DNA of 64,000 bases, taken from the NCBI GenBank assembly GCA_944390795.1, contig CALXRI010000007.1:62001-126000 (forward strand), in the 5' to 3' direction. The DNA comes from an uncultured Victivallales bacterium (GTDB taxonomy: Bacteria > Verrucomicrobiota > Lentisphaeria > Victivallales > UBA1829). Below, piece by piece: positions 35,621 to 45,719 of the stretch (position 1 is its first letter; each line of letters begins with the position of its first letter). A program made the translations under genes and the position numbers. The notes under the pieces were generated by a model. The model made no database searches. It saw only the letters and a list, made by a program, of their open reading frames with translations, and was not told where the DNA came from.

Positions 35621-36502
35621 TCACGGCTTCATCAGTTCCTCGAATGTCCGGCAGAGTTTTGCTATGGAAACGCGCTGAGACATGACGTTGGTCTCATTCT
35701 GCATGCTCCTGATGCGCGGACACTGTTTCAAGGCGGGAATCAGCTTCTTCCAGTCGACCGTCCCCGTGCCGGGGAGGTGATGCTCGTCCGCATATCCGCT
35801 GTTGTCATGAAGGTGACATGTCACGATATGCGGAGCGAGTTTTCCGAACGCATCCGGCTCCTGCACGACCCCGCTTTTCCAGCAGAGGTTCATGTAAGAC
35901 GCGTATTTTGCGGGATCTTTGCCGGGAGTCTTCGCCATGACGTTCGCATGTCCGGCATCAAAGCAGCAGCCGAGAACCGGCGTATTGAAATAATCCAGGA
36001 AATAAAGCACCTCGTCCGGGGTGTTGAAAGGTTCGAAACTGTTTTCCAGAGCGATGACTATTCCGAGCGCCTCCGCCGCCGGAATCAGTTTCTCGAGAGA
36101 ATCGACGGCCAGCGCGCGCATTTCTTCAAGCGTGGTGTTCTTGTAGTAGCAGTCATAGGCGCCGATGTGCATCACATAGGAACGGCAGCCGAGGTCGGAA
36201 GCATACGCCATGCAGAGTTTGTGATCCTCAATCATCGCACTCCGCCGGGGCCGGTCCGTAATGTTCAGATCCCAGGCGGTGCCCCAGAGTCCGTGACACT
36301 CGAATATCTTCATGCCGCTTTCCCGGAGCCAGCCGAGCAGCGTGGTGTAAAATCCTGGCTCCTGCACAAGGCGCTTTCCCCATGAAGTCTCCAGGACGAC
36401 GTTCTCCGCGCCGTTGTCGGAAAATTCGCTCAGGATGTTGACGATGAAATCATCGCTGATTTTCCCCCAGGGGAAAAAGTGTGACAGGGGAATCGTTTTC
36501 AT
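35621..36502 (-). CDS. Xylose-isomerase-like TIM-barrel protein, paralogue of 20746-21627
   Basis: 293 residues from MKTIPLSHFFPWG, whose ATG has GGAGG nine bases upstream and overlaps the histidine-kinase stop. It has the same length and the same four metal-site motifs as the paralogue: Glu in ALENS, FDAGH, CHLHDN, and QNETN. It shares the HGLWGTAWD and LPGTGTVDW segments as well. The fold suggests metal-dependent isomerisation or epimerisation of a sugar-like compound. It is the last gene of a long minus-strand string and is co-transcribed with a sensor kinase, an unusual pairing. The substrate is unknown. Confidence 0.85.
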   Translation of the reverse strand: MKTIPLSHFFPWGKISDDFIVNILSEFSDNGAENVVLETSWGKRLVQEPGFYTTLLGWLRESGMKIFECHGLWGTAWDLNITDRPRRSAMIEDHKLCMAYASDLGCRSYVMHIGAYDCYYKNTTLEEMRALAVDSLEKLIPAAEALGIVIALENSFEPFNTPDEVLYFLDYFNTPVLGCCFDAGHANVMAKTPGKDPAKYASYMNLCWKSGVVQEPDAFGKLAPHIVTCHLHDNSGYADEHHLPGTGTVDWKKLIPALKQCPRIRSMQNETNVMSQRVSIAKLCRTFEELMKP

Positions 36503-38469
36503 GAATCTTGTCCTCCATTGTTGTCTGAAACCTGCTCTACAGGCAGAATTACATCGAAAGCGGCGCCCCGCCGGGGCAGGTTGCCGCACTGAAGCCAGCC
36601 ATTATGGGCCAGAATGGTCCCGTATGCCATGGCAAGCCCCATGCCGGTTCCCTTTCCGACAGGTTTGGTTGTGAAAAAGGGTTCGAAGACCCGGGATTTC
36701 ACGGCGGGATCAATGCCGGTCCCGGTATCCTCAATCCGGATGACGCACAGCTTCCGCGCCGGGTCCGGTGTCACTTCGGAAGGAGGGTCAAGCGCAATTC
36801 CCAGCGCATGCGGATCGCCGATCCGGATCGTGAGAATCTGCTCCTCGCTCTCCGCATTGCCCTGCATTGCGTCCTTGGCGTTGATCATCAGGTTGAGAAG
36901 CGTCTGCTGCAGCTGAATCGCGTCGCCGCGTACGATGTATCTCCTCCCGTCGTCAAAAATCCGGAACGTGATGCCGGACTGCGTCCCCGGGAGAAAAAGA
37001 TCCGCGCACTTGTCCACAAGACCGCGCACATCCACGTCGGCGTTCTGGTAGTTTCCCTTCCTCGCAAAGCTGAGCATCTGCGAAGTCAGCGTTCCGGCAA
37101 GTTCCGTGATATGGTCGATTTTATCCAGATTGCGCCGGACATCCTCGTCCTCGACGTCATGCATGTAGCGGATAATGTCAAGATGCCCCTGAATGGCATG
37201 CAGATAGTTGTTGAAGTCATGCGCGATTCCTCCCGCAAGACGGCCGATTGCCTCGAGACGCTGCCTGTGCGACAGCTGGGAATGCCATTCCTCCCGTTCC
37301 CGCTCCAGCTTCCGGCGTTCCGTCACATCGCGTCCGAAGGTGATCAGAAGCGGCGCGTTTTCAAACGGAATCATTGTGATGGACAGCTCCAGCTCCGTCT
37401 CCTTTTCCGGAACGATGATGGAGCAGGAAACGGATAAATCCTCCGCGGTGCGCACAACTCCGGAGTCGGAATTCTGTTCCAGAAGATGACGCCAGACCTC
37501 CGGATTCAATCCGGCAACCTCTTCGAAGGAATGATTGATGACCGCCGAAAAGGTGTCCGCTCCGAGCATTTTGAGCGCCGCGCGGTTTGCATCGATCACC
37601 CAGCCGTTTTCATTCATGATGACAATCATGTCGCTGGCATTCTGCACCAGCATCCGGTAGCGCTCCTGCGATTCCCGGAGATTCTGCTCCAGCTTGAGCG
37701 CGCGTCCGTATCCGCCGAAAAATGCGAGAATGATGTCCAGCGTGCGCCGTGACTCTCCCGGATTCTCATGCGTGATCCTGGAAAGATAGATCGTCGTCGG
37801 AACGCTCAGGATCAATACGAAAATCGCACGGGCGAAATAGGACGAAGTGAGTTGTTCCCACCATGCGGAAGTTCCCCAGTAGGCAATCGTCACGAACACG
37901 ATATGATCGATCAGCTGGATCAGCAGCAGCGAGCCCGTCACTGTGACATACAGCCGGCAGCGGAAATTCAGCAGGCGCTGAAAGAAAATCGGAAGCAGGA
38001 AAAGGTCGAACGTCAGTGAAATCACCGTCGCAGCCATCATCCGCAGACTGGCGGAAAGAAGAAACCCGAAGGATTCCGTTACAATGCTCTGCGGCATCGT
38101 ATATCCCGGCCAGGTGGTCTGCACCAGGGTAATCGAGGCAAGATAAGCGTAAAATCCGAGCGACGCCATGACGCCGATGATCAGACGCTGGGCCGCAAGT
38201 GTGCCGTCCGTCAGGTAAACCACCACGAGAAGCGCCAGAAACGGCAGGAAAAGAACCGAAGAGGAAAGAGAAAAATCCAGTCCCTGATAACCGATCAGCA
38301 TCCGGAGCCCGGAGGCCCCCGTCAGCTGAGTGAAGACAAGAAGAACGCCGGCGGCAATGTAAAATGGCGTCGAACCGAGAACCTTGCGCAGACCGTGAAG
38401 AATCAGCAGTCCTGCGAGGATGAACGTCATCTCCAGAAGAGTGAGACAGCATCCGTAAAAAATTTCCAC
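36499..38469 (-). CDS. Membrane sensor histidine kinase with PAS domain
   Basis: 656 residues starting with GTG. Residues 1-235 contain seven or eight membrane helices and form an integral-membrane sensor, not a periplasmic loop sensor. A PAS domain follows (about 265-385, LVQNASDMIVIMNENGWVIDANRAAL), then the kinase core: H-box GGIAHDFNN with His417, N-box LNLMINAKDAM, G1 DTGTGID, and G2 GTGMGLA. All residues needed for autophosphorylation are present. No receiver domain is fused and no response regulator gene is nearby, so it is an orphan kinase. The gene follows mcsB by 33 bp and overlaps the TIM-barrel gene by four bases. Confidence 0.9.
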   Translation of the reverse strand: MEIFYGCCLTLLEMTFILAGLLILHGLRKVLGSTPFYIAAGVLLVFTQLTGASGLRMLIGYQGLDFSLSSSVLFLPFLALLVVVYLTDGTLAAQRLIIGVMASLGFYAYLASITLVQTTWPGYTMPQSIVTESFGFLLSASLRMMAATVISLTFDLFLLPIFFQRLLNFRCRLYVTVTGSLLLIQLIDHIVFVTIAYWGTSAWWEQLTSSYFARAIFVLILSVPTTIYLSRITHENPGESRRTLDIILAFFGGYGRALKLEQNLRESQERYRMLVQNASDMIVIMNENGWVIDANRAALKMLGADTFSAVINHSFEEVAGLNPEVWRHLLEQNSDSGVVRTAEDLSVSCSIIVPEKETELELSITMIPFENAPLLITFGRDVTERRKLEREREEWHSQLSHRQRLEAIGRLAGGIAHDFNNYLHAIQGHLDIIRYMHDVEDEDVRRNLDKIDHITELAGTLTSQMLSFARKGNYQNADVDVRGLVDKCADLFLPGTQSGITFRIFDDGRRYIVRGDAIQLQQTLLNLMINAKDAMQGNAESEEQILTIRIGDPHALGIALDPPSEVTPDPARKLCVIRIEDTGTGIDPAVKSRVFEPFFTTKPVGKGTGMGLAMAYGTILAHNGWLQCGNLPRRGAAFDVILPVEQVSDNNGGQDS

Positions 38470-38502
38470 AGTGTCAGCGCCTTTCCCCGTTTTGCCGCGG
38501 AT

Positions 38503-39567
38503 TCATTCCTGCAGGAATTTCCGCAGAAGCGCGGCGCGCGCGACGTCGCGGCCGTCCTGATCCAGTTCCCGTCCTTCGTATTTCTGGAGATGCGCGGCCT
38601 GCACCAGAAGAAACAGTTCATTGACCGTGTGAATGTTCACGGAGCGGAACATGTTCAGGTCGACGCCGAGCCGCAGCGCGGAAAGAGAATTGAGCGACTC
38701 GTCACCGGAAATGATGTAGGAGTGTTTCAGCAGTCCGTAGGCACGCCCGATATGATTCATCAGATAGTTCTGACGGTTCGCAAGGAGAAGCGCGCGCGCC
38801 TTTTTTTCATGGGCGATGATCTGCGCAATCACCGACGTGAGACGGCGGATGATCTGCTCTTCGCTTTCCCCGAGCGTGCTCTGATTGGAAATCTGGTAGA
38901 GATTGCCCAGCGTCTGACTGCCTTCCCCGTAGAAACCGCGCGCCGCCAGTCCGAGCTTGTTGACACCCTGTACAACGGCCTGCACCTGATTTGTCAGGAC
39001 AAGCCCCGGAAGATGGAGCATCACGGAAGCGCGCAGTCCGGTTCCAAGATTCGTCGGACAGGATGTCAGATAGCCGAAGGTCTTGTCAAAGGCGAACGGC
39101 AGTTCCATGGAAAGTTCATCGTCCAGCAGGCTGATCCTCCGCCAGATTTCATTCAGCTGAAATCCCGGGGCAAGCACCTGAAGACGCAGATGATCCTCCT
39201 CATTGACCATCACAAACACCCCCTGCCCGCGGTTCGTCACCAGCCCCGCGCCGCGGCGGGGATTCAGAAACTCCCGACTGATGAGGTGGCGTTCCAGCAG
39301 AAACCGGCGGTCCAGTTCGGAAAGCTCGTCCACCTTGAACTCGCAGGTTTCCGTCTCCTTCATGGAATCCGCACGCTCCAGCACGCCGAACACCGAATCG
39401 CGGACAGCCGTCAGCGAAACGTCGTCGGAACGGACGGGAAACGGCTCGCCGGAAAGATTGCGCGCAAGACGGATGCGGCTGCTGATGGCAATGTCATCTT
39501 CGGGACCGTTGTCCATCAGCCAGCAGACAGGCTGGCGGAAAAGCGCGTCGATCCGTTCATTCGCCAT
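38503..39567 (-). CDS. mcsB: Protein-arginine kinase McsB
   Basis: 354 residues from MANERIDALF, with AAGGAG seven bases upstream. It shows the bacterial phosphagen-kinase-like pattern: ISSRIRLARNL near residue 30, the CPTNLGTGLRAS block with the catalytic Cys, and IGRAYGLLKHSYIISGDESLN towards the end. McsB phosphorylates arginines on proteins, marking them for ClpC/ClpP degradation in Firmicutes. It overlaps mcsA by 11 bp, the usual pair. ctsR and clpC, the usual Firmicutes neighbours, are absent. Here the pair sits between a CDC123-like gene and a histidine kinase. Confidence 0.92.
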   Translation of the reverse strand: MANERIDALFRQPVCWLMDNGPEDDIAISSRIRLARNLSGEPFPVRSDDVSLTAVRDSVFGVLERADSMKETETCEFKVDELSELDRRFLLERHLISREFLNPRRGAGLVTNRGQGVFVMVNEEDHLRLQVLAPGFQLNEIWRRISLLDDELSMELPFAFDKTFGYLTSCPTNLGTGLRASVMLHLPGLVLTNQVQAVVQGVNKLGLAARGFYGEGSQTLGNLYQISNQSTLGESEEQIIRRLTSVIAQIIAHEKKARALLLANRQNYLMNHIGRAYGLLKHSYIISGDESLNSLSALRLGVDLNMFRSVNIHTVNELFLLVQAAHLQKYEGRELDQDGRDVARAALLRKFLQE

Positions 39568-40132
39568 TGCCCTTCTCCTTTCCCTCCCCTTCAAGCGCCC
39601 TCTTCAGCTCCTGAATCCTGTCCCGCAGGACGGCTGCCTCCTCGTATTCCTCGTTCCGGATCCGGATCTCCAGTTCCTGCTGGCAGGCGGCAATTTTCCT
39701 GCGGAGTGCGACCTTTTCAATCACATCCTCGGTCCGATGGTCCGTTTCATGATTGCAGGGCGTCTTCCCGAGATGCGTCAGACCTCGGTGCATATTTTCC
39801 AGGACACCGGACAGCACTTCGGAAAACACCAGGTAGCATTCGGGACAGCCGAGACGACCGGTTTTGCGGAAACGCTCCGTATCCCAGCCGCAGGCGGCGC
39901 ATTTCACGGACGGGGCAGCGGACGTCTCCTCGGCTCCGCCCGCGTTTTCCTGCCCGTTTTCATTGGTGAAATTGTAGAGCATTTCAGCAAGGTTGAAGCT
40001 CTGCAGAATCGGTTCCGTTTCCGCATTTTTCGCGGCGCACTCCGCGCAGAGGTGAAACACCTTCTTTTCACCGTTGATGATCTCCTGGACATGAATTGTG
40101 GCGGGATTCTTGTTGCAGATCTGACACAGCAT
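39557..40132 (-). CDS. mcsA: McsA, zinc-finger activator of McsB
   Basis: 191 residues. Four CxxC pairs are seen at Cys3/6, 29/32, 78/81 and 96/99, matching the two zinc fingers of McsA. The C-terminus is a UVR motif (about 145-185; NEEYEEAAVLRDRI). In Firmicutes McsA binds and activates McsB and links it to ClpC. It overlaps mcsB and follows the CDC123-like gene by 26 bp. Confidence 0.92.
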   Translation of the reverse strand: MLCQICNKNPATIHVQEIINGEKKVFHLCAECAAKNAETEPILQSFNLAEMLYNFTNENGQENAGGAEETSAAPSVKCAACGWDTERFRKTGRLGCPECYLVFSEVLSGVLENMHRGLTHLGKTPCNHETDHRTEDVIEKVALRRKIAACQQELEIRIRNEEYEEAAVLRDRIQELKRALEGEGKEKGNGE

Positions 40133-40158
40133 GGAGGAGGCTCCTTGAATATTGAGGT

Positions 40159-40887
40159 TCAGAATGACACGTTCACATCCCCGCTGAGCGTGCGGGGCGG
40201 CGGGACGATGAAACAGCCCGAAGTGCCGTTCCAGTCACGGTCCCAGCTGCCGAGCATCAACGGATCGGTCGGGGGACCCCAGGGGTTGATGTCGACAATC
40301 AGGATCTTCCCGCCTGCCGTGAAATAGATGTCCATCGCGCAGTCACGCTGATCGAGAACCGGCGCGATTTCATTCACGAACTTTTCCGCTTTCGACCAGT
40401 AGGTTTTCCGGAGCTCCACCAGACGCCGGAAATGGCGGATGAGCCAATACTGGCTCATTGCCTGCAGTTTTCCGCCGCGGATGAAAAGCCGGAACTCGCG
40501 CGTCACATCCATCCGGCGGAAAGGACGGACGCAGATCCGGGAAACACACCCGGATTCGGCGGCGGAACGCACTTTCGAGCTTTCCGCGAGCACCGCCCAT
40601 GCGCTTCCGGCGGAACTGACCGCGCCGCGTTTCCGGAGAAAACGCTCCGTGTCGGTCGGAGCGGCGGCATCAACGGAAACAAAACGCATCCCGCTGAACG
40701 TGCGGAGCGCAAGACTCAGGCGCGGCAGAAGGGCCCCGACCACATCGCCCTTCGTCTCGCCGGCGGCAAGCGCAGCAATCTCAGGAGCCTTCAAACTCAG
40801 AAACACTGCGGGAAAACTGTAGGAGGACAACTTCGGATACCAATCCTGCATGCGGTAGAAATCGTAGTTTTTTACAATAAATCCCAT
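40159..40887 (-). CDS. CDC123/D123-family ATP-grasp protein
   Basis: 242 residues. Three blocks match the D123 family of which eukaryotic Cdc123 is the type: an N-terminal WYPKLSSYSFPAVFLSL; a middle VRPFRRMDVTREFRLFIRGGKLQAMSQY, where the family has 'R.W..i....EFRcFV....l..isQ'; and a C-terminal DIYFTAGGKILIVDINPWGPPTDPLML, where the family has Asp...Asp-x-Asn-Pro and 'TDsLLF'. The last block supplies the metal/ATP acidic residues of an ATP-grasp fold. Eukaryotic Cdc123 is an assembly factor for initiation factor eIF2; bacterial members are barely studied and predicted to be peptide or protein ligases. Here it lies between a membrane protein and mcsA, downstream of def and gltX. Target unknown. 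Confidence 0.72.
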   Translation of the reverse strand: MGFIVKNYDFYRMQDWYPKLSSYSFPAVFLSLKAPEIAALAAGETKGDVVGALLPRLSLALRTFSGMRFVSVDAAAPTDTERFLRKRGAVSSAGSAWAVLAESSKVRSAAESGCVSRICVRPFRRMDVTREFRLFIRGGKLQAMSQYWLIRHFRRLVELRKTYWSKAEKFVNEIAPVLDQRDCAMDIYFTAGGKILIVDINPWGPPTDPLMLGSWDRDWNGTSGCFIVPPPRTLSGDVNVSF

Positions 40888-40910
40888 GCCTCACCTTACC
40901 TTCCTTGGCT

Positions 40911-41861
40911 TTAAAACAGATCCCCGTCATCCTTCCGCGGCGGATTCAGCTGTTTCTGCACTCGGCTGAACACTATCAGATGATAGAGGAAAAATGCAAT
41001 GAAGAACACCGTCTGGAAACTCAGGAACGGCAGCGCCATTCCGGAAAAAAGAGATGCGACAATCAGCGGAGGAAATGCCGCATACAGCGTAAGAATCAGG
41101 ACGGTCCGGAACCCCATTTTCCGCTCCGCGCCGTTCACGGACCAGAAATACTGCGCCAGCGCGAAAAAAAGCACGGAGAAAAAACCGAGCAGCAGCATTC
41201 CGAAAAATGCCATGGAAAAAATCACAACCGCCACGCCGGAGATCATCTGTCCTGCGACAAGAGCGGGATTATCCACGGAAAAGCCGTCCGGCCACAGAGC
41301 AAGATCTTCCATTCTTTCTCCGTTTTTCAGGCTGAAACGACCTGCAAGATACGTCCCGAGTTCCTCCCGGGAAGCAACCAGTTTCATCAGCGGGATTTCC
41401 TGCGCCAGACGTCCGTCAAGCAGAGTGTTCATCACCATGTACTGCTCCTGCGCCGTGCCGGACGCATTCCGGAACCATGTCACGATTGCACGGTCAAGCA
41501 GAACAATTCCGTAATCGGAATCCCATTTCCGCGTTGCGGACGGCTGAAAGGACGAACCAGGAAAATAATCAAAGCGCATCCGGGGATTCAGAATATAGCT
41601 CTGCGCCTTTTCGGGATTTTTCAGCAGGCGGATTCCGGCGTCCCGCGAGATCTTCACTCCGCCGATCTGCTCGAACAGCACATTGCAGACACGCCGGATC
41701 TCCCTGCCGAGAAACCAGGCGTTCGCCGAGGCAAGACAAACGGACAGAAGAAAGATCAGAAGAACAAAGTGAAAAAGAGCCCGCCAGACGGAACGGTTCA
41801 TCAGCTGAAGAAAAACCGTCGTTCCGGTGCAGACCTGAAACACTGTTCTGAAAAAATTCAT
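40911..41861 (-). CDS. Integral membrane protein, possibly DUF1189-like
   Basis: 316 residues. One N-terminal membrane helix (about 27-47) precedes an extracytoplasmic domain of about 150 residues, and four hydrophobic segments follow near 205-300. This N-helix/soluble domain/C-terminal helical bundle layout, plus the amphipathic FLQLMNRSVWRALFHF start, resembles DUF1189 proteins, but I see no diagnostic motif. It begins four bases after the def stop and ends 23 bp before the CDC123-like gene, so it is certainly in the operon. No function can be assigned. Confidence 0.8.
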   Translation of the reverse strand: MNFFRTVFQVCTGTTVFLQLMNRSVWRALFHFVLLIFLLSVCLASANAWFLGREIRRVCNVLFEQIGGVKISRDAGIRLLKNPEKAQSYILNPRMRFDYFPGSSFQPSATRKWDSDYGIVLLDRAIVTWFRNASGTAQEQYMVMNTLLDGRLAQEIPLMKLVASREELGTYLAGRFSLKNGERMEDLALWPDGFSVDNPALVAGQMISGVAVVIFSMAFFGMLLLGFFSVLFFALAQYFWSVNGAERKMGFRTVLILTLYAAFPPLIVASLFSGMALPFLSFQTVFFIAFFLYHLIVFSRVQKQLNPPRKDDGDLF

Positions 41862-41865
41862 CGTC

Positions 41866-42480
41866 TCAGGAAACCAGTCGTTTGATGCTGTAATGTCTGT
41901 TTCCGGATTTCCGGATGATCTTTTCCAGAGCGGGAAGAATCTCCTCGAAATCCGGGGATTTCACACGCTGGACAAATACCACGCCCTCCAGATGATCGAG
42001 CTCGTGCTGAAGCGCGCGCGCCAGAAGTCCGCCGCAGTCCAGATGAAGGGGGGGACCGTCCAGAATCTGCGCCCTGAGCACCACGGAAACGGGCCGCTCC
42101 ACTGGCGCATATATTTTCGGAACGCTCAGGCAGCCCTCCTCGCGCGTCTCCAGCGCGGGGGAAAAGGAAACGATCTCGGGATTGATGAGAACTACCGGCA
42201 TCCTGTGGCAGAGTTCCGCTTCGCCGGGAGAGAGCGGCATGATGACATTGCCCGCCTTGTCCGTCGGCGGATCGACATGCAGCGCCACAATCCGCAGCGG
42301 CACTCCCACCTGTGTAGCGGCAAGCCCGATGCCGTCTTTGGCATACATCGTCTCAATCAGTTTTTTCCCGAAATCGCGGATCTCATCGTCGATGCGCTGC
42401 ACCATCTTCGCCTTCGCATGCAGCACGTTGTCGCCGAGAGTCCGGACCGTCAGAATTTTCTTTTTTCCGATATTGAGCAT
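41866..42480 (-). CDS. def: Peptide deformylase
   Basis: 204 residues from MLNIGKKKIL, chosen because GGAGG lies eight bases upstream; a longer frame reaches into gltX. All three catalytic motifs are intact: GIGLAATQVG (from 50), EGCLS (115-119) and HELDH (159-163), which hold the metal Cys and two His and the catalytic Glu. It removes formyl from nascent protein N-termini. It is 16 bp after gltX and four before the membrane-protein gene, within a translation/modification-flavoured operon. Confidence 0.95.
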   Translation of the reverse strand: MLNIGKKKILTVRTLGDNVLHAKAKMVQRIDDEIRDFGKKLIETMYAKDGIGLAATQVGVPLRIVALHVDPPTDKAGNVIMPLSPGEAELCHRMPVVLINPEIVSFSPALETREEGCLSVPKIYAPVERPVSVVLRAQILDGPPLHLDCGGLLARALQHELDHLEGVVFVQRVKSPDFEEILPALEKIIRKSGNRHYSIKRLVS

Positions 42481-42496
42481 TTCCCTATCCTCCATC

Positions 42497-44089
42497 TCAG
42501 CTCGCGGAGCCGAGGGCAAGGGTTTTCCGGATTCTGGACGCGCAGTCCCCCGTTCCGATCACGGCGGCCGTTTCATACATGCTCCCGCCGACCGTCACTC
42601 CGGTCACGGCGACCCGCAGCGGCTGATTGAGCCTGCATGCCCCCATGCCATGCGCGGACTCGACTTCGCGCAGCGTCTGTTCAACCTCCGTTTCATTCAT
42701 CGACGGCTTCCGTTCAAAAATATCGGCAAGCGCGGCAAGCGCCGTCCTTGTCGTTTCGTCGGAAAGCAGCTTGCGGAATCCCTTCGGATCATATTCGAGT
42801 TCGCCGCAGAAGAAGTATTTCCACGCGTTCACGTCCTGATAGGTTTTCGTGCGGGTCTGCATCAGCGCGGCGACCTTGGAGAAAAGTTCCCGGGAAGCGG
42901 ACGCGCGCCACTCCCAGCGTCCGGCAAAATCCCAAGCCTCGGATTCGAAGCGTGCAAGCGGCATTTCCGCCAGATACATTCCGTTCATGTTCACAAGCTT
43001 GACAAGGTCGAACTGCGCGGGAGAACGCTGTGCGCGGTCGATGGAAAACGCCTCGACCAGCTCCTGTCTCGTCATTTTCTCACGGTTGTCGCCGGGCGAC
43101 CATCCGAGCAGCGAAAGATAGTTGAAGAGAGCTTCCGGCAGAAATCCCTTTTCCCGGAAATCGCCCACAAACGCGTCGCCGTCGCGTTTGCTGTACGGCT
43201 TGCCGGAGGCGTTCACCAGCATCGGCAGATGCGCATAGGTCGGCGGCGTGAATCCAAGCGCCTGAAACAGGAACAGATGGCGGTATGTGTTCTCCACATG
43301 ATCGTCGCCCCGCACGATATGAGTCACACGCTGCGTCACGTCGTCGCAGACGTTCGCCAGATGGAAGACAGGACTGCCGTCGCTGCGGATGATGACCAGA
43401 TCCTTGATTCCGTCGAGCGGTTTCGCCAGATCCCCTTTCACGAGATCATGGAAAAACACCTCGCGTCGCAAGAACTCGAACGCGGCGGCCCCCGCAATCA
43501 CCTTGGGTTCGACAAGCGCCTCAATCTCGCGGATGTTGGAAGCGTCAAGCGTGAAAATCACATTTCCTGCGCCATCAAAAACCCTCAGGTCCTTGAAACC
43601 GGCAAGCCCGGCTGCATTTTCGACGGTTTTCCCCTTGTGGTTGACCACGGACCAGGTCAGCCCCGCGCGGGAAATCGAGAACGGCGCATCCACCGCCAGT
43701 TCCGTGCGGACGCGTCCGCAGGCGCGTACAAAGGGAAAGGAATCGCAGTCATAAGGCAGACGGAACAGCACAGGGGAACCGGGTTGTCCGGGATTGAGTT
43801 CATAAGCGCATCCTCTGGCGACCAGATCGCGCGCAGCCTGCTTGTGGTGCTCACTCTGCGAAGTCTGGTACATCACTTCGCCGTCATAATCAAGCCCGAG
43901 CCATTTCATGCACTCGAACAGGGCGTCGATCGCCTGTTTCGTGGAACGCTCCAGATCGGTATCCTCGATGCGGAGCAGGAACTCCCCCCCGCAATGGCGT
44001 GTGTAAAGCCAGTTGAAAATTGCGGTTCTGATATTGCCGATATGAACCTGTCCCGTGGGGGACGGCGCGAATCTGGCCCTGAAATCCAT
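42497..44089 (-). CDS. gltX: Glutamyl-tRNA synthetase
   Basis: 530 residues from MDFRARFAPSP, whose ATG has AAGGAG seven bases upstream. Class I motifs are present: HIGN (HIGH) at residues 16-19, and SKRDG (KMSKS) in GKPYSKRDGD. The region between about residues 98 and 215, where most GluRS have a compact zinc-binding or zinc-like segment (CYC...CRH), is here longer and unlike the usual sequence and has no zinc motif. The C-terminal anticodon domain appears present. It charges tRNA-Glu; a discriminating or non-discriminating form cannot be told. It is the first gene of the eight-gene string running to 35621. Confidence 0.93.
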   Translation of the reverse strand: MDFRARFAPSPTGQVHIGNIRTAIFNWLYTRHCGGEFLLRIEDTDLERSTKQAIDALFECMKWLGLDYDGEVMYQTSQSEHHKQAARDLVARGCAYELNPGQPGSPVLFRLPYDCDSFPFVRACGRVRTELAVDAPFSISRAGLTWSVVNHKGKTVENAAGLAGFKDLRVFDGAGNVIFTLDASNIREIEALVEPKVIAGAAAFEFLRREVFFHDLVKGDLAKPLDGIKDLVIIRSDGSPVFHLANVCDDVTQRVTHIVRGDDHVENTYRHLFLFQALGFTPPTYAHLPMLVNASGKPYSKRDGDAFVGDFREKGFLPEALFNYLSLLGWSPGDNREKMTRQELVEAFSIDRAQRSPAQFDLVKLVNMNGMYLAEMPLARFESEAWDFAGRWEWRASASRELFSKVAALMQTRTKTYQDVNAWKYFFCGELEYDPKGFRKLLSDETTRTALAALADIFERKPSMNETEVEQTLREVESAHGMGACRLNQPLRVAVTGVTVGGSMYETAAVIGTGDCASRIRKTLALGSAS

Positions 44090-44225: not shown

Positions 44226-45638
44226 TCAGTATTCGCCTGTCGCCGCCATCAGCTGAGCCTTGGCGTTGTGCATGTTGATGACATAGGTCGCAAGAGAGGT
44301 TTCCGCGTCGACCAGGTCGCGCTGCGCCTCGTTCAGACGGGTCAGCTCGGTATTCCCGGCACGGTATTCCTCCTCGACAAGGTCACGGATCTTCCGGTAG
44401 AGTTCCAGACTTTTCTGGGAGATCTTGACCTGCTTCAGACATGTCAGATAGTTGTCATATGCGGTTCGGACTTCGGCGACAACGGTGATCCACGTATTTG
44501 CCAGCGAGTAGTCGCTCTGAAGCATCGCGGCCTGGAAGCGCCGCATGTTGAAGAATGTTTCACCGCCGCTGAACAGCTCCCAGGAGACATTCCCTCCGTA
44601 ACTGAAGTAAAAGGTTTCGCTTTTATTGGTGCGGCTGCGGGAATCGTCATACGCCTTGATGCGGCTCTGACCGACATTATAGCCGATGTTCGCATTCAGG
44701 GAGACGGTCGGCCCGAAGGAGCAGATGGATCCCCAGTAATTGTATTTGGCGACTTCAAGCGCCTCGCGGTATGCCTTCAGGTCGGGACGGCTCGCCAGGG
44801 CGGTGTCCAGATAAACGGCGAGACTGGAGAGAACCTCGCCGTCGGGCGACGGCACACCGGGGAACTGCACTTCCTCGTGAATCGTCCCTTCGGTCAGCCC
44901 CATCAGCTGGGCAAGCGCGTATTTGGAGGCGGCAAGCTGATACTGCGCGGCATACAGGTCGGATTCCGCGGAGTTGTAATAGGCCTTGAAGTTGAGCACA
45001 TCGCTCAGAGGAACGGCACCGACTTCGAACTTCAGTTCGTTTTCCTTCAACTGGGAATTCTGAAATCTCATGTTTTCCCTGGCGATCATGATTTTGGCAT
45101 TCGCCAGCAGGATGTCGTTGTAAGCGTAGGCGACGGTTCGCACAAGAATGCGGCGGGCGTCGAGTTCCAGCGCCTCGCTCTGCTTCCAGTTGTGACGGGC
45201 GGCGAGAAGGTTCATCTCCCGGACAAAAGAGTCGAAGAGCAGCCAGTTCGCGGTTGCGCTGGGACCGTTTTCAAACGAGCGGGAGCCGTTCTGGATGTTG
45301 TTGTAAACATTGTTGGGCTCATTGAACGTATGGGTAATGGAATATCCCGCGGTGATGGTCGGCATATAGGGGGCGAACGCCGCGTAATAGGAGGCTCTCG
45401 CGGCGACAACCGCGAAATATTTTGTCTTGAAGTCCGGATTGTTCTGGACCGCAAGGTTCTGGGCATCCTCCAGCGTCAGAAGTTTCTGGCTGATATCCAG
45501 TTTCCTGTGTTCCGAACCGGGAATGCTGGTGAATGCGCTTCTTGAAATCGCCACCGGCGGTTTCGGATACGACGTGCACCCTGAGAGGACAACCAGTCCA
45601 GACAGGGCGAATACCGCTGCAATACGTTTTCTGTCCAT
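44226..45638 (-). CDS. TolC-family outer-membrane efflux lipoprotein
   Basis: 470 residues from MDRKRIAAVF, with AAGGA upstream. The signal peptide ends in lipobox LSGC (Cys20), so it is an outer-membrane lipoprotein like OprM or NodT. The paired long-helix OEP repeats are visible, each starting with LDEALNLA-like text (LTLEDAQNLAVQNNPDFK and the later YLDTALASRPDLKAYREAL). It forms the trimeric exit duct for efflux or secretion. The RND pair at 26.2-30.4 kb is a possible partner but is not adjacent. Confidence 0.92.
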   Translation of the reverse strand: MDRKRIAAVFALSGLVVLSGCTSYPKPPVAISRSAFTSIPGSEHRKLDISQKLLTLEDAQNLAVQNNPDFKTKYFAVVAARASYYAAFAPYMPTITAGYSITHTFNEPNNVYNNIQNGSRSFENGPSATANWLLFDSFVREMNLLAARHNWKQSEALELDARRILVRTVAYAYNDILLANAKIMIARENMRFQNSQLKENELKFEVGAVPLSDVLNFKAYYNSAESDLYAAQYQLAASKYALAQLMGLTEGTIHEEVQFPGVPSPDGEVLSSLAVYLDTALASRPDLKAYREALEVAKYNYWGSICSFGPTVSLNANIGYNVGQSRIKAYDDSRSRTNKSETFYFSYGGNVSWELFSGGETFFNMRRFQAAMLQSDYSLANTWITVVAEVRTAYDNYLTCLKQVKISQKSLELYRKIRDLVEEEYRAGNTELTRLNEAQRDLVDAETSLATYVINMHNAKAQLMAATGEY

Positions 45639-45719
45639 TTCGTAAAATCCTTTAGCCTGTTTATCAAAAGTCCTGCGGCCTGCCCTATGCATTACCCATC
45701 TGTTGTTTTATAAGCAGGT

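Follow-up and report, generated by a model that had tools for sequence, protein, structure and literature searches.

In eukaryotes, CDC123 attaches to domain 3 of eIF2-gamma, helps to assemble eIF2, and binds and hydrolyzes ATP, with R111 of the human protein contacting the ATP phosphates (PMC12860950). Human K104 is a catalytic-site lysine, and for the R2K clade Burroughs et al. proposed a function in ligating amino acids or peptides to protein (PMC4431377). Bacterial CDC123 proteins (R2K.1) were described there as two types, one linked to type VI secretion systems (T6SS) and one effector-like, or Legionella-type. In the same work, Burroughs, Zhang and Aravind already listed a CDC123 from Lentisphaera araneosa and included lentisphaerae in the range of the family (PMC4431377). 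Its main text mentions neither deformylase nor McsB nor arginine kinase by these terms. The other described system that bears on this locus is the arginine kinase pair McsA-McsB, which is encoded in Firmicutes as ctsR-mcsA-mcsB-clpC. In Chlamydia, by comparison, an mcsAB operon lies away from clpC (PMC10128030).

Here we describe a string of genes in which a CDC123-family gene stands between a peptide deformylase gene and mcsAB. It lies in a stretch of 64,000 nucleotides, called the window below, from the genome of a member of the Lentisphaeria that is closely related to Victivallales bacteria.

Anatomy and conservation of the gene string

A preliminary description of this DNA proposed eight genes running in one direction, from gltX to a TIM-barrel gene. 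An open reading frame check of the window bears this out, with all eight in the proposed order on the minus strand (Table 1). When the best start codons are used, the gaps are no longer than 33 bases, in keeping with the proposed limit of about 35, and the overlaps number two rather than several. The extent of the string needs amending, as its first gene had been missed. A tolC-like gene lies 5' of gltX on the same strand and is probably the first gene of a conserved upstream cluster. A promoter-like motif match sits just upstream of this gene. Promoter and terminator scans inside the string revealed no convincing break, although motif matches of this sort say little in either direction.

Table 1. 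Features of the gene string, in the direction of reading
Feature	Position in window	Strand	Profile or motif	Spacing
Promoter-like motif	45748-45720		TTGAAT-17-TATAGT (motif match alone)	just upstream of tolC
tolC-like outer membrane efflux protein	44226..45692	-	PF02321, TIGR01844	136 bases to gltX
gltX, glutamate-tRNA ligase	42497..44089 (read 44089-42497)	-	TIGR00464 over cut-off	
def, peptide deformylase	41866..42480	-	PF01327	gap after gltX 16
DUF1189/Yip1-like membrane protein	40911..41861	-		gap after def 4
CDC123-family protein, lysine-less, 242 aa	40159..40887	-	PF07065	gap after membrane gene 23
mcsA, activator of protein-arginine kinase	39557..40132	-	NF053706	gap after CDC123 26
mcsB, protein-arginine kinase	38503..39567	-	PF00217, NF002194 over cut-off	11-base overlap with mcsA
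Membrane sensor histidine kinase (VUPS sensor, PAS, HisKA, HATPase)	36499..38469	-	PF20973, PF00512, PF02518	gap 33
Xylose-isomerase-like TIM barrel (AP_endonuc_2)	35621..36502	-	PF01261	4-base overlap with kinase

Conservation of the gene order was examined in 80 named Lentisphaeria loci that contain CDC123, drawn from a search in which each species was represented by a single genome, and examined with profiles of the window genes; the denominators below count the loci with enough sequence. Upstream of CDC123, the order is strongly kept. The membrane gene is the immediate upstream neighbor in 75 of 77 loci, def is found upstream in 67 of 75 and tolC in 55 of 64, while gltX belongs to the cluster in 41 of 72 and is missing from the other 31. 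The downstream genes are rarely present: mcsA in 6/71 loci, mcsB in 6/69, the histidine kinase in 4/61 and the TIM barrel in 3/59. All six loci with mcsA (L032-L037) come from the genus of the window and its nearest relatives. The TIM-barrel gene occurs downstream only in L032-L034 and is a genus-level addition.

McsB itself is common, being present in 56 of 61 related genomes, mostly unlinked to CDC123. It usually lies on another contig or hundreds of kilobases away; in one nearly closed genome (G045), the two genes are about 860 kb apart. The string is therefore the end-to-end junction of two independently conserved clusters. Cluster A consists of tolC, gltX, def, the DUF1189-like membrane gene and CDC123, and cluster B, a separate stress and protein-quality-control cluster, of mcsA, mcsB and the sensor histidine kinase. 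The two stand head to tail only in the genus of the window and one neighboring genus. These genera group, with weak support (87/40), in the CDC123 tree, so the arrangement is compatible with a single joining.

The preliminary description had named conservation across relatives as the check on its proposal. The run of def, membrane gene and CDC123 is kept in most relatives, and the placement of a CDC123-fold protein beside the only deformylase detected in its genome is conserved across the order. The proposed functional link between CDC123 and McsAB is not supported, because the gene order shows separate clusters. The same data rule out McsAB as an obligate partner of CDC123.

The older part of cluster A is the pair of def and the DUF1189/Yip1-like gene. 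These two occur together in class outgroups (L218, L220, L221 and L222), where CDC123 is not beside the pair, and they are still paired in four genomes without CDC123 (G051, G056, G059 and G308). More broadly, the pairing is seen across the class with or without CDC123 (L211-L213, L218, L220-L222). The membrane gene, which stays with def where CDC123 is absent, is likewise ruled out as an obligate CDC123 partner. Among 43 members of this membrane protein family, 37 match DUF1189 (PF06691) and 17 match Yip1. The structural model (pLDDT 93) has an extracytoplasmic domain between the first and later membrane helices. A known transporter fold was considered and rejected, the best Foldseek match being MacB (E 0.027, TM 0.25). 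The best hit in a structure search (Z 6.3) was an unrelated chain, and neither search returned a clear relative, which does not in itself establish a new fold.

CDC123: fold, ATP-site residues and inheritance

The window protein matches the CDC123 profile PF07065 with 61.9 bits (cut-off 24), and the match is confined to the C-terminal lobe. A profile built from the family finds human CDC123 at 5e-18. The AlphaFold2 model, with a mean pLDDT of 90, predicts a full-length CDC123 fold made of pre-ATP-grasp, RAGNYA and kinase-like lobes. Its top structure matches are Cdc123 proteins (Z 23.2-23.9 over 220-231 residues; Foldseek E 9e-14), and the next fold family is that of the ATP-grasp enzymes, including RimK and Ddl ligases, at Z of 10.8 or less. 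Like the eukaryotic structures (PDB 8phd and 4zgp), the window protein has the ExR, Asp and DxN motifs and an N-terminal WYP region in addition to the predicted full-length fold. Unlike them, it is short and lacks the eukaryotic insert and tail.

Several R2K features are present. In 48 sequences from the order, E131, R133, D186, D199 and N201 are invariant; these are residues of the ExR on strand 1 of the kinase lobe, the Asp on strand 4 and the DxN on strand 5. Two outgroup sequences of family f9 carry H instead of N in DxN. In most sequences, conservation of the C-terminal tail, GDVNVSF, extends through its final residue.

The feature that defines the R2K clade, a lysine on RAGNYA strand 2 followed by a second lysine or arginine just downstream, is missing from the Lentisphaeria proteins. 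Human K104 and R111 correspond to S71 and T78 in the window protein. Across the 48 sequences, the first position holds S, F, T, G, C or A and the second T, V or I, never K or R, and neither position is K or R in any of 14 class outgroups. The residue register comes from a low-scoring N-terminal alignment and is supported also by a shared F..D...P.D pattern. In the HMMER alignment, an outgroup stretch, VVGLDSCAPSD, is matched to VPKLNWSTPKD of Schizosaccharomyces pombe Cdc123 (4zgp), a stretch that scores only 2.3 bits alone; the outgroup member has G at the strand-2 lysine and S at the second. Two other lysines are well kept in the order, K86 in 47 and K105 in 46 of the 48 sequences; the conservation of K86 does not extend to the class outgroups. 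The Lentisphaeria proteins belong to the CDC123 family by profile and fold but, because they lack the two-lysine feature, should not be filed as R2K ligases. The label "ATP-grasp enzyme" given in the preliminary description is therefore doubtful.

Within the order, 85 of 97 sampled genomes carry CDC123, and 14 more genomes of the class do as well. These 99 profile matches over the cut-off, from 388 genomes of the phylum, all fall within the class. The CDC123 tree requires nine changes of family label, the minimum possible. Since the tree follows taxonomy with the fewest possible changes, CDC123 is inherited vertically across the class as one copy rather than passed around.

The surroundings of the gene vary outside the order. 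In four genomes of the outgroup family f11 (L179-L182), CDC123 comes immediately after map and ffh, and in family f14 it follows a UDP-glucose dehydrogenase-like gene; the names map (methionine aminopeptidase), ffh (signal recognition particle) and dehydrogenase were read from translations rather than from profile searches. In the remaining genomes beyond the order and f11, CDC123 is solitary or has unrelated neighbors. A class-level family, f10, has no CDC123 by profile search in any of its eight listed genomes (G123, G127, G202, G213, G225, G241, G257 and G261), and in the same eight McsB is absent or very divergent.

These proteins share the Pfam D123 family with the previously described bacterial R2K.1 members. 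In contrast to the T6SS-linked and effector types, the Lentisphaeria gene is single-copy and class-inherited, accompanies def and the membrane gene, and lacks the lysines of the clade. Profile searches of the CDC123 neighbors in the window detected no T6SS, PAAR, SUKH, toxin or immunity genes. A class-wide, vertically inherited CDC123 thus appears to be new, although it may have been described earlier outside the open-access papers.

McsA, McsB and the sensor histidine kinase

The McsA of the window scores 131.6 bits against NF053706, below the 210-bit cut-off, in an alignment of nearly the whole length, and its sequence contains CxxC zinc motifs and a UVR motif (PF02151). McsB (221 bits against PF00217) retains intact active-site motifs: SSRIRLARN, NEEDH, TSCPTN, GEGS and SNQSTLGE. 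The preliminary description had stated that neither ctsR nor clpC accompanies this pair. For ctsR this holds, as PF05848 has no match in the assembly, which is 95% complete. A ClpC-type gene is nevertheless present on another contig (C2). It encodes AAA modules, two repeats of Clp_N and a UVR motif that scores just under its cut-off; the gene matches no NCBIfam ClpC model. McsAB without ctsR and with a ClpC-type gene elsewhere is not unusual outside Firmicutes, since such an arrangement has already been reported from Chlamydia (PMC10128030).

The mcsA-mcsB pair, the intact kinase motifs and the ClpC-type gene are shared with the Firmicutes and Chlamydia systems. What sets the window genome apart, besides the missing ctsR and the ClpC-type gene on another contig, is that its mcsAB pair is linked to a VUPS-sensor histidine kinase, as it is in most of the order. 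By our own count, such a kinase follows mcsA-mcsB in 26 of 35 assessable genomes of the order, one of which has a match to the kinase profile and none to the sensor profile. This kinase, with its PAS domain, is thus seen after the pair across much of the order, in the window as in L190-L207. In the class outgroups, where the available flanks are short, the pair occurs without it. No obvious response regulator lies beside the kinase in the window. In the open-access literature, we found no papers on VUPS with histidine kinases or on McsB in Lentisphaerae, and the recurrent link between mcsAB and this kinase may be less well known.

In several Lentisphaeria lineages, the McsB motifs NEEDH, GEGS and SRIRLARN are partly or wholly eroded (L205 and L207 in genus g5; L140, L143 and L200 in g7; L232 and L233; L234-L238, L240 and L241). 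Often mcsA is still adjacent in these lineages, and so is the histidine kinase in g5 and g7. Judged from these motifs, the eroded McsB proteins are probably pseudokinases.

A possible role for CDC123

We are nearly certain of the anatomy taken jointly: two clusters, a vertically inherited CDC123 and the lost residues. The best explanation overall, which we hold tentatively and at slightly less than an even chance, adds to the two joined clusters a CDC123 that acts as a binding or assembly chaperone and not as a ligase. Because both basic residues are lost, a binding or assembly role is favored over an ATP-driven ligase, and we infer an absence of ligase activity. That such a chaperone-like protein acts on a translation factor or nascent-chain factor, as the eukaryotic analogy suggests, is possible but somewhat improbable as it stands.

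To our knowledge, bacteria lack eIF2. By homology of domain 3, the bacterial candidates for a CDC123 target are EF-Tu and SelB. A true SelB over the cut-off is found in three of 61 relatives, one of which (G059) has no CDC123, and SelB was rejected as the target. SelB is rare and its occurrence does not match that of CDC123, which leaves EF-Tu or some unrelated nascent-chain factor as candidates. CDC123 would bind a translation GTPase whose domain 3 resembles that of EF-Tu, as eukaryotic CDC123 binds eIF2-gamma; the candidate target would be EF-Tu, which is ubiquitous, or another early nascent-chain factor. CDC123 would be made together with deformylase and would have its task at the start of the life of a protein. 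Such a task fits its presumed production with the sole detected deformylase, and its place beside map and ffh in f11.

Three other readings were weighed. The Lentisphaeria protein could still be an active ATP-dependent ligase, in which K86 and/or K105 have replaced the lost lysines and which joins single amino acids or peptides onto a protein. The sequence conservation of these two lysines and of the five invariant residues points in this direction, as do the RimK and Ddl ligases that are its next fold neighbors, and spatially equivalent residues have been argued to compensate in other R2K members (PMC4431377). However, the class outgroups do not share K86, and both the strand-2 lysine, otherwise absolutely conserved, and the second basic residue are missing from the whole class; we consider a retained ligase activity unlikely. 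CDC123 may instead be a mere passenger of def and its membrane gene, because that pair persists where CDC123 has been lost. In its general form, this reading makes cluster A a set of housekeeping neighbors under one promoter, stable in order only, in which the function of CDC123 has nothing to do with def, gltX, tolC or the membrane protein. The members do belong to different pathways (efflux, tRNA charging and deformylation), gltX is missing from the cluster in many loci, and CDC123 has other neighbors in the class outgroups. Yet the adjacency of the membrane gene and CDC123 is nearly constant across several families, and the separate outgroup placement is again beside nascent-chain genes, map and ffh. 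Adjacency of this kind, reflecting stable gene order alone, seems to us a minority prospect.

The third reading is that of the preliminary description, which placed CDC123, deformylase and McsAB in one protein-modification or translation-quality pathway. The tight spacing on one strand in the window speaks for it, as does the adjacency of CDC123 and McsAB kept in seven genomes of two genera. Against it, the genes lie apart in about 65 of the 71 named loci that could be assessed, though most genomes have both, and genus g5 combines an intact CDC123 with an McsB of eroded active site. A common pathway is very improbable.

Eukaryotic CDC123 has been suggested to descend from the conflict systems of toxin delivery and effectors. 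The Lentisphaeria proteins might represent a third bacterial kind, a class-wide, vertically inherited and lysine-less assembly chaperone for a translational GTPase or nascent-chain factor, a proposal that we regard as doubtful in this full form. That a vertically inherited CDC123 has been kept across the class beside deformylase, or beside map and ffh, points to a housekeeping function in the production of new proteins, and it becomes possible to test whether CDC123 already had a part in translation before there were eukaryotes. The missing ATP-site residues likewise allow a test of whether the chaperone role of CDC123 needs catalysis. If the chaperone reading is true, Lentisphaeria would hold a bacterial parallel to eIF2 assembly and possibly a clue to the origin of the role of CDC123 in translation.
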